Below are positions 59,473 through 63,636 of a stretch of DNA of 64,000 nt, one piece after another. Each line of letters opens with the position of its first letter. Within the stretch, counting starts at the first letter, position 1. The notes below the pieces were generated by a model. That model was not told where the DNA came from, ran no database searches, and was given only the letters and a program-made list of their open reading frames with translations. Origin of the DNA: Pseudidiomarina planktonica (GTDB lineage: Bacteria > Pseudomonadota > Gammaproteobacteria > Enterobacterales > Alteromonadaceae); contig NZ_FXWH01000001.1 of assembly GCF_900177775.1 (NCBI RefSeq), forward strand, positions 558,001-622,000, in the 5' to 3' direction. The position numbers and the translations under genes were made by a program.

Positions 59473-59928
59473 ATGAGTATTATTTCAAAGTCTGCGGCTA
59501 GCAAAACTGGCCAGTCTGGTTTCTCACTCATCGAAGTTATGGTGGTGGTAGCCATTATTGGTGTGCTGGCCAGTATTATTCTGCCGAACGTTATTGGCTC
59601 TAGTGAACAGGCCGATCGCCAGAAAGTGGTGGCTGACATGGTAGCGCTGGAAAATGCGCTGGCGCAGTACCGCCTGGACAACGGCATGTACCCAACTACC
59701 GAGCAGGGCCTGGAGTCGCTGGTAAATGAACCTACCGTTGGACCAAGCCCGCGTAACTACCGCCGTGGCGGTTACATTCAGCGCTTACCACAAGACCCAT
59801 ACGGTAATGACTACCTGCTGCTGAACCCGGGTGAGTACGGCGACGTAGACATTTTCTCGGCAGGCCCTGACAACCAAACCGGTACCGACGACGACTTCGG
59901 CAACTGGATGATAGGCCAGAATGACTGA
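59473..59928 (+). CDS. gspG: major pseudopilin GspG
   Basis: The main pseudopilin, 151 residues. The leader is ordinary: about 16 residues before the prepilin-peptidase site SG|FSLIEVMVVVAIIG with Glu at mature position 5. The C-terminal region has the calcium-binding features of GspG (LPQDPYGNDYLLLNPGEYGDVDIFSAGPDNQTGTDDDFGNW). Unlike the next three pseudopilins it carries no repeat insertion. AACGAGG precedes the start. The stop overlaps the gspI start (ATGACTGA). Confidence 0.96.
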   Translation: MSIISKSAASKTGQSGFSLIEVMVVVAIIGVLASIILPNVIGSSEQADRQKVVADMVALENALAQYRLDNGMYPTTEQGLESLVNEPTVGPSPRNYRRGGYIQRLPQDPYGNDYLLLNPGEYGDVDIFSAGPDNQTGTDDDFGNWMIGQND

Positions 59929-60652
59929 AAGGAATGACGTAGCCTGCGGTTCTACCGCAGGTGCGATGCCGGCTATCCCTCCTGACGTAAAACGTCAGGC
60001 TACGTGTGCCAATGTTTCCGGGTTTGATGTAGCCTGCGGTTCTACCGCAGGTGAGATATCGAACCCAACAACAATGTCCGATGCAATCACCGCCCTTGCC
60101 GTTTTCAACACCCCACCTGACGTAAAACATCAGGCTACGTGTGCCAATGTTTCCGGGTTTGATGTAGCCTGCGGTTTTACCGCAGGTGCGATCTCGAATC
60201 CACCGATTCCGCCCGATACGACAACCGCCCTTGCCGTTTTCAACACCCCACCTGACGTAAAACATCAGGCTACGGGCGAACGCAGGACCCTTGGTTTTAC
60301 ATTAATTGAGGTTATGCTGGCGCTGTCCATATTCGGCCTGGCGGCACTGGCGGGGGTGAAAGCTGCCACCGATAACCTCAATAGCGTTGGCTTTATTCAG
60401 GACAAAACCTTTGCTCGCTATGTGGCTGCTAATCGCTTAGCCGAACTTAGCCTGAGCACCCGTTGGCCACCCGCCAACAACCAAACCGGAAGCGAACGCA
60501 ACGGCGACAAAGAATGGTTCTGGCAGCAACAAGTACAAGAAACCGCCATGTCTGATTTTCGCGCTGTAACCATACGCGTAAGCGACCGCCAGTTCACCGA
60601 GGAAGACGACAGTAGTGTGTACTCACTAACCCGCTACGTAGGGCGGCGCTAA
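59921..60652 (+). CDS. gspI: minor pseudopilin GspI with repeat-encoded leader extension
   Basis: The mature part (118 residues from Phe126) is GspI: G|FTLIEVMLALSIFGLAALAGVKAATDNLNS, then DKTFARYVAANRLAEL and WFWQQQVQET. The start ATG at 59921 overlaps the gspG stop by eight bases, which suggests coupling. Residues 7-118 are read from three REP doublets (VACGSTAG...PDVKRQATCANV). No ATG, GTG or TTG occurs in frame between the block and the mature protein; the last in-frame ATG is residue 52, so at least two of the units must be translated. The usual leader is 5-30 residues; here it is about 125. Confidence 0.88.
   Translation: MTERNDVACGSTAGAMPAIPPDVKRQATCANVSGFDVACGSTAGEISNPTTMSDAITALAVFNTPPDVKHQATCANVSGFDVACGFTAGAISNPPIPPDTTTALAVFNTPPDVKHQATGERRTLGFTLIEVMLALSIFGLAALAGVKAATDNLNSVGFIQDKTFARYVAANRLAELSLSTRWPPANNQTGSERNGDKEWFWQQQVQETAMSDFRAVTIRVSDRQFTEEDDSSVYSLTRYVGRR
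59939..60273. repeat. three REP doublets in the gspI leader
   Basis: Units: 59939-60003 (short), 60029-60138 and 60164-60273 (110 bases each). Each has GTAG plus CCTGCGGTTCTACCGCAGG or a variant on the left and CCTGACGTAAAACGTCAGG plus CTAC on the right. In units 2 and 3 the right palindrome reads ACATCAGG, a shared change that indicates local duplication. Spacing between unit starts is 90 and 135 bases, both divisible by three. The spacer GTGTGCCAATGTTTCCGGG recurs. Confidence 0.9.
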
Positions 60653-61587
60653 TGCATTGCGCACAGAATAATGACGTCGCCTACGGCTCCGCTGTTGTTG
60701 CCTGCGGCGCTGGGTCTCATGCGGCCTGCGGTTCTGTTGTAGCCTGCGGTTCCACCGCAGGTGCGATCCTGCAACCAAAGATTTTGTCCGATGCGACAAC
60801 CGCACCTGTCGTATTCAACACCCCACCTGACGTAAAACGTCAGGCTACGTGTGCCAATGTTGTAGCCTGCGGTTCTACCGCAGGTGAGGTTCTGCAATCA
60901 ACGATTTTGTCTGATGCGACAACCGCACCTGTCGTATCCAATATCCCACCTGACGTGGAACGTCAGGCTACAACAAACGCGGCATCGAATGCGGCACCAA
61001 ACGCGACATCGAATGCGGCACCAAATGCGGCATCGGTACGCTGTGCTAGCGGCTTTACGTTAATCGAAATTATGCTGGTTATGGCCATTGTGGGTTTGCT
61101 GGCGCTGGGGGTTACCCTCACGCTGTCCAGCCCTGGTGGTAAAACCCCGCAGGAAACCGCGCAAAACCTGGCCTACCGCCTGCAATACGCCCGCGAATAC
61201 GCGCTAGTTCGTCAGGCCACCATGGGCCTGCATATTCAGGAAGAAAGCTACCAGTTCGTAAGCTGGCAACCCGAGTTAGGTGAAAACGGCCGCTGGCAGG
61301 GCGTTACCGAACGTGGTTTCGAAAAGTTCGACATTCCCTGGAACCACGCCATTACGGTTGAAAGCGCCGACCTTGATTTAATGGAACAGGAAGAACAACT
61401 AAGCGGTGGCTTGTTTGCTGAAGAAGACGACCGCAACGATCAAATAACCCCCCAACTGATTATTTTTCCAAGCGGCCAGTTACCCCGGTTCCGCCTGAAT
61501 ATTCGCGACCGGGAAGAGCCCGGCTCTACCTGGCACGTACAAAGCGTGGATGGCTTCAACCTGGAGGTTACCCGTGCTGAATTATAA
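60652..61587 (+). CDS. gspH: minor pseudopilin GspH with repeat-encoded leader extension
   Basis: The mature part (177 residues from Phe135) is GspH: SG|FTLIEIMLVMAIVGLLALGVTLTLSSPGG, then QNLAYRLQYAREYALVRQATMGLHIQEESYQFVSWQ. The start at 60652 shares one base with the gspI stop (TAATG). Residues 8-107 derive from repeats: degenerate copies (DVAYGSAVVACGAGSHAACGS), then two full units, followed by a five-fold four-residue repeat (N-A-A-S or N-A-A-P). No ATG, GTG or TTG start lies between residue 1 and the mature start except within the first degenerate part. It stands after gspI instead of before it. Confidence 0.87.
   Translation: MHCAQNNDVAYGSAVVACGAGSHAACGSVVACGSTAGAILQPKILSDATTAPVVFNTPPDVKRQATCANVVACGSTAGEVLQSTILSDATTAPVVSNIPPDVERQATTNAASNAAPNATSNAAPNAASVRCASGFTLIEIMLVMAIVGLLALGVTLTLSSPGGKTPQETAQNLAYRLQYAREYALVRQATMGLHIQEESYQFVSWQPELGENGRWQGVTERGFEKFDIPWNHAITVESADLDLMEQEEQLSGGLFAEEDDRNDQITPQLIIFPSGQLPRFRLNIRDREEPGSTWHVQSVDGFNLEVTRAEL
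60739..60971. repeat. two REP doublets in the gspH leader
   Basis: Units 60739-60848 and 60862-60971, 110 bases each, 123 bases apart (41 codons), joined by GTGTGCCAATGTT. Upstream, 60680-60738 holds broken copies of the left arm (GCCTGCGG, twice). The right palindrome of the second unit reads CCTGACGTGGAACGTCAGG, as at the intergenic sites. All are in the VACGSTAG frame. Confidence 0.9.
60976..61035 (+). repeat. five tandem 12-base repeats in gspH
   Basis: Five copies of AAYGCGGCAYCR (one GCGACA variant) encode N-A-A-S, N-A-A-P, N-A-T-S, N-A-A-P, N-A-A-S. Placed between the REP block and the prepilin-peptidase site; in frame. A likely slippage-prone spacer. Confidence 0.85.
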
Positions 61588-62632
61588 TGAGCGTCGGGTG
61601 GATGTAGCCTGCGGTTCTACCGCAGGTGCGATCCCGCAACCAACGATTTCGCGCGTTGCGACAACCAACCCTGTCGTTTCCACTACCTCACCTGACGTAA
61701 AACGTCAGGCTACGTGTGCCAATGTTGTAGCCTGCGGTTCTACCGCAGGTGCGATCCCGCAACCAACGATTTCGTGCGATGCGACAACCAACCTTGTCGT
61801 TTCCACCACCTCACCTGACGTAAAACGTCAGGCTACGTGTGCCAATGTTGTAGCCTGCGGTTCTACCGCAGGTGCGATCCCGCAACCAACGATTTCGTGC
61901 GATGCGACAACCAACTCTGTCGGTTCCACCACCTCACCTGACGTAAAACGTCAGGCTACGTGTGCCACAGCCGCACATTCCGGCCGCGGTCAATCAGGGT
62001 TTACGCTGGTGGAAGTGCTGGTAGTCATGATGATATTCGCTGTTATTGGCATGGCCAGCTACCAGGTGGTAGACGGCATGATTAACACCGAACAACAAAG
62101 CAGCGCCCGCCAAAGCGAGCTGGAAAAACTGCAGTACGCCATGCTGATTATGGAACGCGACATTCGCCAAATAGTGGCCCGGCCCGTGCGCGGCGCTCAG
62201 GGTGACGACGCTAATATGTACCTAACCACCGACCGCGACCTGACCAACAGCGACAGCGGCACCTTAGGCTTTGTGCGAACTGGCTGGCAGAATCCCGGCG
62301 ATATGTTTCCACGCAGCGCGCTGCAACCCGTGGTGTACCGTATTTACGACGACCAACTGCAACGCATCAGCTACCCCTATGTAGATCAGGTAGGTGCCGA
62401 CCCAAACATTCAAGTAGTTATGCAAGGCGTTCCCGAACTGCGCTTTCGCTTTATTGCCGACACCACTAACACCGCGCCAAACTGGCAAGACGAGTGGAAC
62501 CGCAGCGGCTGGCTCCCGCTGGCTATTGAAATGACCATGCAAACTGAAGACTTTGGTGAAATACGCCGGGTATTCGAACTCAATGGCGGTCAATTCATAG
62601 AACAGGACCAGCAAGCGGAGCAAGAGCAATGA
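61574..62632 (+). CDS. gspJ: minor pseudopilin GspJ with repeat-encoded leader extension
   Basis: The mature part (210 residues from Phe143) is GspJ: SG|FTLVEVLVVMMIFAVIGMASYQVVDGMINTEQQSS, then LEKLQYAMLIMERDIRQIVARPVR. The start is taken as the GTG at 61574 (LNYNERRVD) because GGAGG at 61563-61567 lies six bases upstream; it overlaps the gspH stop by 14 bases. An in-frame ATG at 61550 lacks a ribosome site. Codons 11-129 are read from three REP doublets. Since the ribosome site lies before the repeats and no ATG, GTG or TTG follows them before the mature pilin, the repeats should be translated. The leader is about 142 residues. Confidence 0.88.
   Translation: MLNYNERRVDVACGSTAGAIPQPTISRVATTNPVVSTTSPDVKRQATCANVVACGSTAGAIPQPTISCDATTNLVVSTTSPDVKRQATCANVVACGSTAGAIPQPTISCDATTNSVGSTTSPDVKRQATCATAAHSGRGQSGFTLVEVLVVMMIFAVIGMASYQVVDGMINTEQQSSARQSELEKLQYAMLIMERDIRQIVARPVRGAQGDDANMYLTTDRDLTNSDSGTLGFVRTGWQNPGDMFPRSALQPVVYRIYDDQLQRISYPYVDQVGADPNIQVVMQGVPELRFRFIADTTNTAPNWQDEWNRSGWLPLAIEMTMQTEDFGEIRRVFELNGGQFIEQDQQAEQEQ
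61604..61959. repeat. three REP doublets in the gspJ leader
   Basis: Units 61604-61713, 61727-61836 and 61850-61959, each 110 bases and exactly 123 bases apart (41 codons). They are nearly identical to one another, which shows recent tandem duplication. The spacer GTGTGCCAATGTT is the same as in gspH. Every unit would encode 41 residues with two cysteines. Confidence 0.92.
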
Positions 62633-63636
62633 TCTCGCGCCCGCAAAAACAACAGGGCGTAGCCTTAATCATGGTGTTACTGGTGGTTGCCTTAGTTTCA
62701 ACCTTAGCAGTAACCATGGGTGGGCGTTTGCAGCTGCAAATACTGCGCACCCAAAACCTGCAGGACTCCGAGCAAGCCTACTGGTATTTGCACAGCGCCG
62801 AAGCCCTGGTGAAACAAGTGCTAGTAATGGAACTGGAACAAAGCGACGGCGAAGTGAATTTGGGCCAGAACTGGGCCCAACAAAACAGCGTGTTTCCGGT
62901 AGAAGGGGGCACCATTGAAGGGCGCATTAGTGATTTACGCAGCTGCCTAAATGTAAATGCGCTGGACGCTAGTAGCAGCAATGCCACCGCCAATAGTCAG
63001 GAGCGCCGTAAAGAACAATTCAAAAACCTATTTCTGGCGTTGCAAATAGACGACTACAATGCCGACGTAATGGTCGACAGCATTGTGGACTGGATAGACC
63101 GCGACACCAATATTAGTGGTACCTATGGCGCTGAAGATCCGGACTATGAGTCACTGCCTACCCCATACCGGACGGCCAATGCACCCTTGGCTCATATTAG
63201 CGAACTGCGCTTAATTCGTGGCTTCACCCGCGAAATTTATCAAAAAGTATTACCCTTTGTATGTGCCATACCAGCCAACAGTGACGGCCAGGTGAATATT
63301 AATACCGTGCAGCAACCAGAAGTGCTCACTGCACTGTTTGGCGGACGGTTGGCACTAAGTGAAGCGGCCGAGCTTATAGAGCAACGGCCCGAGAACGGCT
63401 ACAATAAAATAACTGATTTTTCTGAAAATTCAGCGGTGCAGGCCGCATTGCAAAACGAATCTGGTGAAGCCCAGGAAGCTGGGGAACAACAAACTGCCCT
63501 TGACGATTTGCGCTTAACCAGTGAGTATTTTGAACTGCGTGGCCGGGTTCGCTTTGGCCAGTTAAGCCAAACCGCAACCAGCATTATTAACGTTGATGGT
63601 AGTGAAGTCACGGTGTTATACCGTGGTATGCACTAA
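62629..63636 (+). CDS. gspK: minor pseudopilin GspK
   Basis: The large tip pseudopilin, 335 residues. The leader is short (MISRPQKQQG|VALIMVLLVVALVSTLAVTMGG) and without repeats. As in other GspK proteins the mature position 5 is not glutamate. The helical and alpha/beta domains have LRSCLNVNALDASSSN, VDSIVDWIDRDTNISGTYGAEDPDYESLPTPYRTANAPLAHISELRLIRG. It caps the pseudopilus with GspI and GspJ. Its ATG overlaps the gspJ stop by four bases. Confidence 0.94.
   Translation: MISRPQKQQGVALIMVLLVVALVSTLAVTMGGRLQLQILRTQNLQDSEQAYWYLHSAEALVKQVLVMELEQSDGEVNLGQNWAQQNSVFPVEGGTIEGRISDLRSCLNVNALDASSSNATANSQERRKEQFKNLFLALQIDDYNADVMVDSIVDWIDRDTNISGTYGAEDPDYESLPTPYRTANAPLAHISELRLIRGFTREIYQKVLPFVCAIPANSDGQVNINTVQQPEVLTALFGGRLALSEAAELIEQRPENGYNKITDFSENSAVQAALQNESGEAQEAGEQQTALDDLRLTSEYFELRGRVRFGQLSQTATSIINVDGSEVTVLYRGMH

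Follow-up and report, generated by a model that had tools for sequence, protein, structure and literature searches.

In this study, we asked how palindromic repeats came to lie within the N-terminal leaders of three consecutive pseudopilin genes, and whether they are translated there. The genes, gspI, gspH, and gspJ, belong to a type II secretion system (T2SS) operon of Pseudidiomarina planktonica, a marine relative of Idiomarina. The whole stretch of DNA analyzed, hereafter the window, is 64,000 nucleotides (nt) long (assembly GCF_900177775.1, contig NZ_FXWH01000001.1, positions 558,001 to 622,000). The repeats are repetitive extragenic palindromic (REP) sequences arranged as REPINs, which PMC3116915 (2011) describes as mobile units of two inverted REPs. 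Genomes, contigs, and loci are denoted by G, C, and L numbers, respectively.

REPIN units in the leaders of gspI, gspH, and gspJ

Eight head-to-head REP doublets (REPINs) lie on the forward strand between the start signals and the prepilin-peptidase sites of gspI (three), gspH (two), and gspJ (three). The initial annotation had placed eight doublets in frame in these leaders, and their coordinates, sequences, and frame were confirmed. The leader of gspI (gene, 59921..60652; leader, 59921-60295) codes for 125 amino acids (aa), and the mature domain starts at the phenylalanine coded at 60296. This leader contains REPIN 1, a short form of 65 nt (59939-60003), REPIN 2 (110 nt, 60029-60138), which includes an internal ATG at 60074, and REPIN 3 (110 nt, 60164-60273). 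The 134-aa leader of gspH (gene, 60652..61587; leader, 60652-61053) has degenerate in-frame pieces resembling the left arm (60668..60738, approximate boundaries set by eye) before the first full REPIN (110 nt, 60739-60848). These are followed by REPIN 2 (110 nt, 60862-60971), whose last arm holds a GTG at 60955, and by an in-frame 12/24-nt tandem repeat (60974-61035, NAASNAAP...). In gspJ (61550..62632, starting at ATG 61550 or, more likely, at GTG 61574), three REPINs of 110 nt each (61604-61713, 61727-61836, and 61850-61959) occupy a leader of 142-150 aa that ends at 61999. All three REPIN-coded leaders depart from the short cytoplasmic leader of minor pseudopilins.

The left arm of each REPIN is GTAG-CCTGCGGTTCTACCGCAGG and the right arm is CCTGACGTAAAACGTCAGG-CTAC, with small variations among the units. 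Most arms consist of GTAG, an 8-bp stem, and a 3-nt loop, and the stem has a mismatch in two gspI arms. The elements thus show the GTAG tag and palindrome of REPs and, in every doublet of 65 or 110 nt, the two inverted arms of REPINs. The orientation (CGG arm first) and frame (GTA GCC TGC GGT..., ...CCT GAC GTA AAA) were identical in all eight units, which translate as VACG[SF]TAG...PPDVK or a near variant.

The repeat stretch covers 78-119 codons per gene with the frame kept. None of the 309 codons of the three blocks is an in-frame stop, whereas the other two forward frames contain 15 and 13 stops. One of the reverse frames has only 4 stops (none in gspI), and the openness of a frame is therefore not unique to the coding one. 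The tandem periods of the gsp blocks were 90, 135, 123, 123, and 123, all of which are multiples of 3. The seven full units vary at 42 of 111 columns with a ratio of nonsynonymous to synonymous variation (pN/pS) of 1.12, compared to 0.74 and 0.56 in the two control frames. Purifying selection on the REPIN-coded residues was rejected on the basis of these values, and the residues look unconstrained from this variation.

The gsp units share a spacer and a linker that were not found in the other full REPINs listed for the window genome. Therefore, the units most likely spread inside the operon rather than arriving three times from outside, and independent insertion into each leader from the genome-wide REP pool was rejected.

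Start codons and translation of the repeats

We surveyed 356 motif-based prepilins with a mature part of at least 80 aa from 104 loci, in which some genomes are included twice. The nearest in-frame ATG, GTG, or TTG was located 3-19 codons upstream of the G|F cleavage site in 343 prepilins and 25-39 codons upstream in 11, one of which is gspH of the window (33 codons). Only gspI (74 codons) and gspJ (134 codons) of the window exceeded 39 codons. The motif does not fit GspK; gspK leaders were read directly. PF07963 detected 15 prepilin-like proteins in the window genome. The motif could be placed in 13 of them, and the nine other than gspG, gspI, gspH, and gspJ showed distances of 6-23 codons.

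No in-frame ATG, GTG, or TTG is present downstream of the last repeat unit in gspI, gspH, or gspJ. The initial statement that no in-frame start follows the repeats holds to this extent and fails within two of the blocks, where ATG 60074 (gspI, + 0.1 kcal/mol) and GTG 60955 (gspH, + 2.6 kcal/mol) are in frame, neither with a ribosome-binding match. The gspJ block contains no in-frame standard start. GTG 61574 of gspJ is preceded by GGAGG and has the best ribosome-binding match (− 10.0 kcal/mol; the 1% quantile of random positions is − 7.1), and an additional in-frame ATG is present at 61550. ATG 59934 in gspI and ATG 61587 (TAATG) in gspJ are out of frame and are terminated by the TAG of a REP. 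Translation of gspJ from any standard start would necessarily include all three REPINs, and that of gspI would include at least 74 codons with the third REPIN.

Leader repeats in related genomes

We searched 25 genomes of the same genus. The 23 genomes with a gspJ match were read (G001 and G023 had none), and the addition of the window genome gave 24. In-frame repeats were present in 20 minor-pseudopilin leaders of 10 of these 24 genomes, so that the arrangement noticed in the window is not a one-off; they were absent from the other 14. The leaders concerned are those of gspI, gspH, and gspJ in the window; gspI in G007; gspI and gspJ in G008, G017, G019, and G020; gspJ in G012 and G018; and gspI, gspJ, and gspK in G014 and G016. 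No gspG leader carried a repeat in any of the 24 genomes. Beyond the genus, we looked at 80 named loci, at least six of which (L152 and L154-L158) apparently repeat genus genomes already read. Among these loci, the only leader palindrome outside the genus set was a hairpin of a different kind (L178).

The repeats themselves differ among the genomes. The GTAG REPs are of the CCTGCGG/CCTGACG type in the window, the CCCGTGG/CCCGCAG type in G007, G008, G017, and G019, and the CCCGGCG type in G012, G018, and G020. The gspI, gspJ, and gspK leaders of G014 and G016 carry an unrelated word, AAGGGGCAGGCACTTA, without GTAG (L122 and L124). On a tree of concatenated GspG-K, the genomes with leader repeats form five lineages, and G007 is sister to G014/G016 yet has a different repeat. 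The sister of the window genome is I. xiamenensis (support 0.95, long branches), whose leaders are normal; no REP-like palindrome was found in the stretch of it that was scanned.

In half of the 20 leaders (gspI and gspJ of the window and G020; gspI of G007 and G016; gspJ of G012 and G018; gspI and gspK of G014), at least one whole repeat must be translated from any standard start. The other ten are ambiguous, as a start is available within the last repeat or downstream of it. Copy number varies between close species, with the frame still open: the gspI leaders of G008 and G019 are 97 and 60 aa, and the gspJ leaders of G012/G018 and G020 are 31 and 39 aa, respectively. G011, G012, G020, and G022 also have REPs in front of gspH; the nearest start lies downstream of these REPs, and they are extragenic. 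The gspG genes of G011 and G012 end at the TAG of such a REP (L119 and L120).

REP population and transposase genes

The window genome contains 67 pattern matches to the REP arms, or 65 without two overlapping 2-mismatch matches at C5:579973-579999, compared to 3 control matches; the arms are thus present in many dispersed copies. Sixteen of the 65 arms lie in the gsp leaders, departing from the extragenic location that is typical of REPs without defining them. Among the other 49, none is wholly inside an open reading frame (ORF) of at least 110 aa and three overlap the end of a longer ORF, so that no ORF of this size besides those with the gsp leaders contains a whole REP. The period of the array at C5:1833399-1833729 is 112. 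REPIN copies adjoin contig ends of this assembly (G000) at C2:115127, C3:73, C4:144-249, and C5:1833399-1833729.

A REP-associated tyrosine transposase (RAYT) gene is located at C5:669537-669881 (Y1_Tnp, PF01797, E 4.8e-9). This is the sole PF01797 gene of the window genome, and REP arms flank it at 668792-669426 and 670110-670302. Judged only from this distribution, the REPs would be mobilized by the RAYT. The proposal that a mobile repeat lengthened leaders that were originally ordinary is supported by the normal leaders of the sister species, by the REP population with its REP-flanked RAYT, and by the need to translate at least one whole REPIN in gspI and gspJ.

We then searched for PF01797 in 14 genomes, picked mostly for REPs or leader repeats, and found the gene in 13 (none in G022). 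Nine genomes (G003, G007, G008, G011, G012, G014, G018, G019, and G020) have a copy no more than 12 kb from gspJ. The distance is 138 kb in G017, and the gene is on a different contig from gspJ in G002 and on a short contig in G016. The genes form two groups that are 21-29% identical to each other; this comparison leaves out the protein of G003, in which listed REP positions lie on both sides of the gene, and the second copy of G020. Group 1 comprises the genes of the window genome, G007, G008, G011, G012 (C9:392571), and G019. GTAG REPs flank all six, and the relatives are 51-58% identical to the RAYT of the window genome. The ORF of the gene in G008 and G019 opens with residues coded by a REP arm (L292 and L291), and translation may actually begin further downstream. 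Group 2 comprises the genes of G002, G012 (C9:410751), G014, G016, G017, G018, and G020 (C4:23740), without adjoining GTAG REPs. The G014 gene is ringed by 13 copies of AAGGGGCAGGCACTTA, the same repeat as in its leaders (L285); this word was not found beside the group 2 genes of the other six genomes. A transposase gene together with its matching repeat is thus located within 12 kb of gspJ in six relatives (G007, G008, G011, G012, G014, and G019), one of which, G011, has no leader repeat.

REP density is high in these regions. In the window genome, 27 of the 49 arms outside gsp lie within 100 kb of the RAYT (3.8 expected if uniform). The corresponding numbers were 49 of 85 exact arms in G008 (6.5 expected) and, around the midpoint between the two PF01797 genes, 48 of 94 arms in G012 (7.2 expected).

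REPs inside other proteins

We examined whether arms lie inside ORFs of at least 100 aa within the fetched stretches of G008 and G012. This was the case for 39 of 154 arms in G008 and 31 of 95 in G012, although many of these ORFs look spurious. Seven ORFs that resemble known proteins were scanned, six from G008 and one from G012 (L268, L269, L272, L281, and L283 in G008; L251 in G012). In-frame REP arms were present in G008 proteins that we take to be Der, RodZ, AceF, SucB, and BkdB, where they lie outside the displayed parts of the Pfam domains. In the presumed HscA of both genomes, the in-frame REP lies within the HSP70 match and not in a linker. These names come from sequence features and are consistent with the Pfam domains. 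In G007, a REP arm is in frame within the mature part of GspJ (L115, 3963-3982). REP-coded residues thus seem to be tolerated by several proteins of these three genomes.

Origin of the repeat-containing leaders

We consider it likely that the leaders arose by RAYT-driven local spread of REPINs, in-frame copies being tolerated there with a near-neutral effect. The RAYT would copy REPINs mainly within its own chromosomal neighborhood, which, judging from gene positions, often includes the T2SS operon in this genus. As the genes of this operon abut or overlap, an insertion into it would hit coding sequence. An inserted copy would survive if it leaves the frame open and lies just past the start codon of a minor pseudopilin, presumably because the short cytoplasmic leader is removed by the prepilin peptidase and its residues matter little. 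Such copies would then multiply by in-frame tandem duplication and spread among the three leaders. The long precursors are predicted to be made from the upstream starts and cleaved at G|F, with a net effect that would be close to neutral. The window genome has one prepilin peptidase match (PF01478), and the G|F site is present in GspI, GspH, and GspJ. This explanation draws on in-frame insertion, expansion by multiples of 3, recurrence, the crowding of REPs in a region that holds transposase genes, and mature domains that score above the cut-offs. That ten genomes of the genus have leader repeats and two of them carry in-frame REPs in other proteins suggests, in the first place, tolerance rather than a purpose. 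With other repeats at the same position in some relatives, these leaders seem to be a site where mobile DNA can insert repeatedly without harm.

Several observations weigh against this explanation. The RAYT of the window genome is approximately 50 kb from gsp. The eight units are related, so the three blocks are evidently not independent insertions from the genome-wide pool. G017 and G018 have leader REPs, and no RAYT of the GTAG type was found in either by the PF01797 search; the gene near gsp in G018 and the only PF01797 gene of G017 belong to the group without adjoining GTAG REPs. Clustering does not prove local copying, as the REP density of the region may have another cause. Concerning translation, the ribosome-binding match of the gspI start is weak (− 3.1 kcal/mol), and initiation of gspH at GTG 60955, which would leave 33 codons, is conceivable in principle. 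Frame 0 of the REPIN type in the window is also open in copies elsewhere in the genome, the chance that the observed substitutions among the units produce no stop is approximately 0.5, and the period of an array next to the RAYT that is non-coding (668792-669291) is 159, likewise a multiple of 3. Thus, openness alone is weak evidence, and the lack of substitution-born stops was rejected as proof of translation because of this chance. The case for translation rests on start codons, frame-keeping lengths, and the relatives.

One alternative is that the repeats are mostly untranslated, with unusual start codons or an internal jump just before G|F giving short leaders and leaving the REPs in effect intergenic, like many of those annotated in other genomes. 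PMC3733652 warns that many N-terminal REPs may be misannotated, the internal starts of gspH and gspI are available, and in G008, G017, and G019 normal leaders of 4-13 aa could start from GTG or similar codons within the last arm or beyond it. However, starts are absent after all three blocks and inside that of gspJ, each gene keeps its frame over the whole repeat stretch with the other forward frames closed, GGAGG precedes the GTG of gspJ, and in G008, G017, and G019 GGAGGA precedes the ATG of gspI that lies ahead of the repeats. Taken together, we regard untranslated repeats as quite improbable.

A further alternative is that the REPINs are kept to tune dosage. In-frame hairpins after the start, or the long leader itself, would throttle the synthesis or processing of GspI, GspH, GspJ, and GspK relative to GspG by slowing translation or partitioning mRNA stability, so that GspG stays in excess; repeats of two unrelated kinds would then act as an adaptive device. 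Minor pseudopilins of the T2SS need low dosage, and five lineages have repeats in these same leaders, whereas gspG is always free of them. RNA folding of the gspJ block is also far stronger than that of shuffled sequences (z − 6.3), but any REPIN array would fold well and the value is not specific. Moreover, 14 of the 24 genomes lack leader repeats, a dosage role does not account for the in-frame REPs that G008 and G012 carry in other proteins, and local REP density accounts for part of the recurrence. We consider dosage control unlikely; if true, selfish repeats would have become an adjustable dosage device for the initiation of the secretion filament.

Under local spread with tolerance, the cleaved prepilin leader would be a class of protein segment that recurrently houses mobile repeats. 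The locus offers cases where no standard downstream start explains the REPs away, and it connects them with the chromosomal region that holds the transposase gene of these repeats. Within one genus, five lineages with different repeats and copy numbers constitute a natural experiment and would allow a direct test of the leader length tolerated by the T2SS.

Comparison with known systems

Palindromes within protein genes have precedents. REP-decorated proteins were reportedly described by Di Nocera et al. in 2013, and Rickettsia palindromic elements (RPEs) are said to have been described by Ogata et al. in 2000 and 2002. The gsp REPINs have a spacer of their own, as shown above.

The 2013 report of intragenic GTAG REPs (PMC3733652) describes single or dimeric GTAG palindromes in frame within genes, as found here, and proposes that in-gene REPs are neutral when located in flexible linkers or loops. 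The use of a REP TAG as the stop codon of a neighboring gene is common to its cases and the gsp loci of G011 and G012. Its inserts are 20-30 aa with clusters of 43-82 aa in repair, replication, and other genes, and many N-terminal cases were suspected to be extragenic. In contrast, the window has blocks of 78-119 codons in prepilin leaders with no later start, in an operon that is hit across species. Words beginning with "pilin" are absent from the main text of PMC3733652; compounds such as prepilin and the supplement are outside this statement. RPEs are described as mobile palindromes in frame in protein genes that are apparently tolerated (PMC10969869 and PMC3733652). RPEs are repeats of approximately 150 bp with a conserved peptide in many genes of an unrelated host, whereas the window has GTAG REPINs and a RAYT. 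The inverted REP pairs and the REP-flanked RAYT of the window genome resemble those in PMC3116915. According to that paper, REPs of P. fluorescens SBW25 are nearly all extragenic (14 of 1,067 16-mers overlap genes), in contrast to the 16 of 65 arms in coding leaders here. No report of recurrent REP insertion in pseudopilin leaders was found in literature listings on REPs and REPINs, intragenic palindromes, or long prepilin leaders. Intragenic REPs are already known, and the recurrent prepilin-leader site, which we did not find in print, is apparently unreported.

The T2SS operon of the window

The operon in the window comprises gspG-gspI-gspH-gspJ-gspK, and all five products passed the curated Pfam/NCBIfam cut-offs. 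The major pseudopilin gene gspG (59473..59928, forward strand; TIGR01710, E 3.9e-47) has an ordinary 16-residue leader without a repeat, and gspK (62629..63636, forward strand; NF037980, E 1.2e-91) also has an ordinary leader. GspI (TIGR01707, E 9e-24 over residues 125-222), GspH (TIGR01708, 92.5 bits against a cut-off of 80, a modest margin), and GspJ (TIGR01711, E 3e-53) each match a minor-pseudopilin profile and carry the N-methyl motif G|FTL[IV]E. The reading frames from gspG to gspK showed neither stops nor frameshifts.

These results bear on whether the operon is decaying, with insertions that broke translation and gspI, gspH, and gspJ becoming pseudogenes. Large insertions in three adjacent genes and an I/H order changed in the window genome only are compatible with decay. 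As every mature domain scores above its cut-off and a decaying locus is not expected to hold the frame in three blocks, we consider decay very unlikely. The gene order of the window is G-I-H-J-K (59473-63636), compared to G-H-I-J-K in all 30 relatives compared, and the swap may have been aided by the REPINs that precede each gene.

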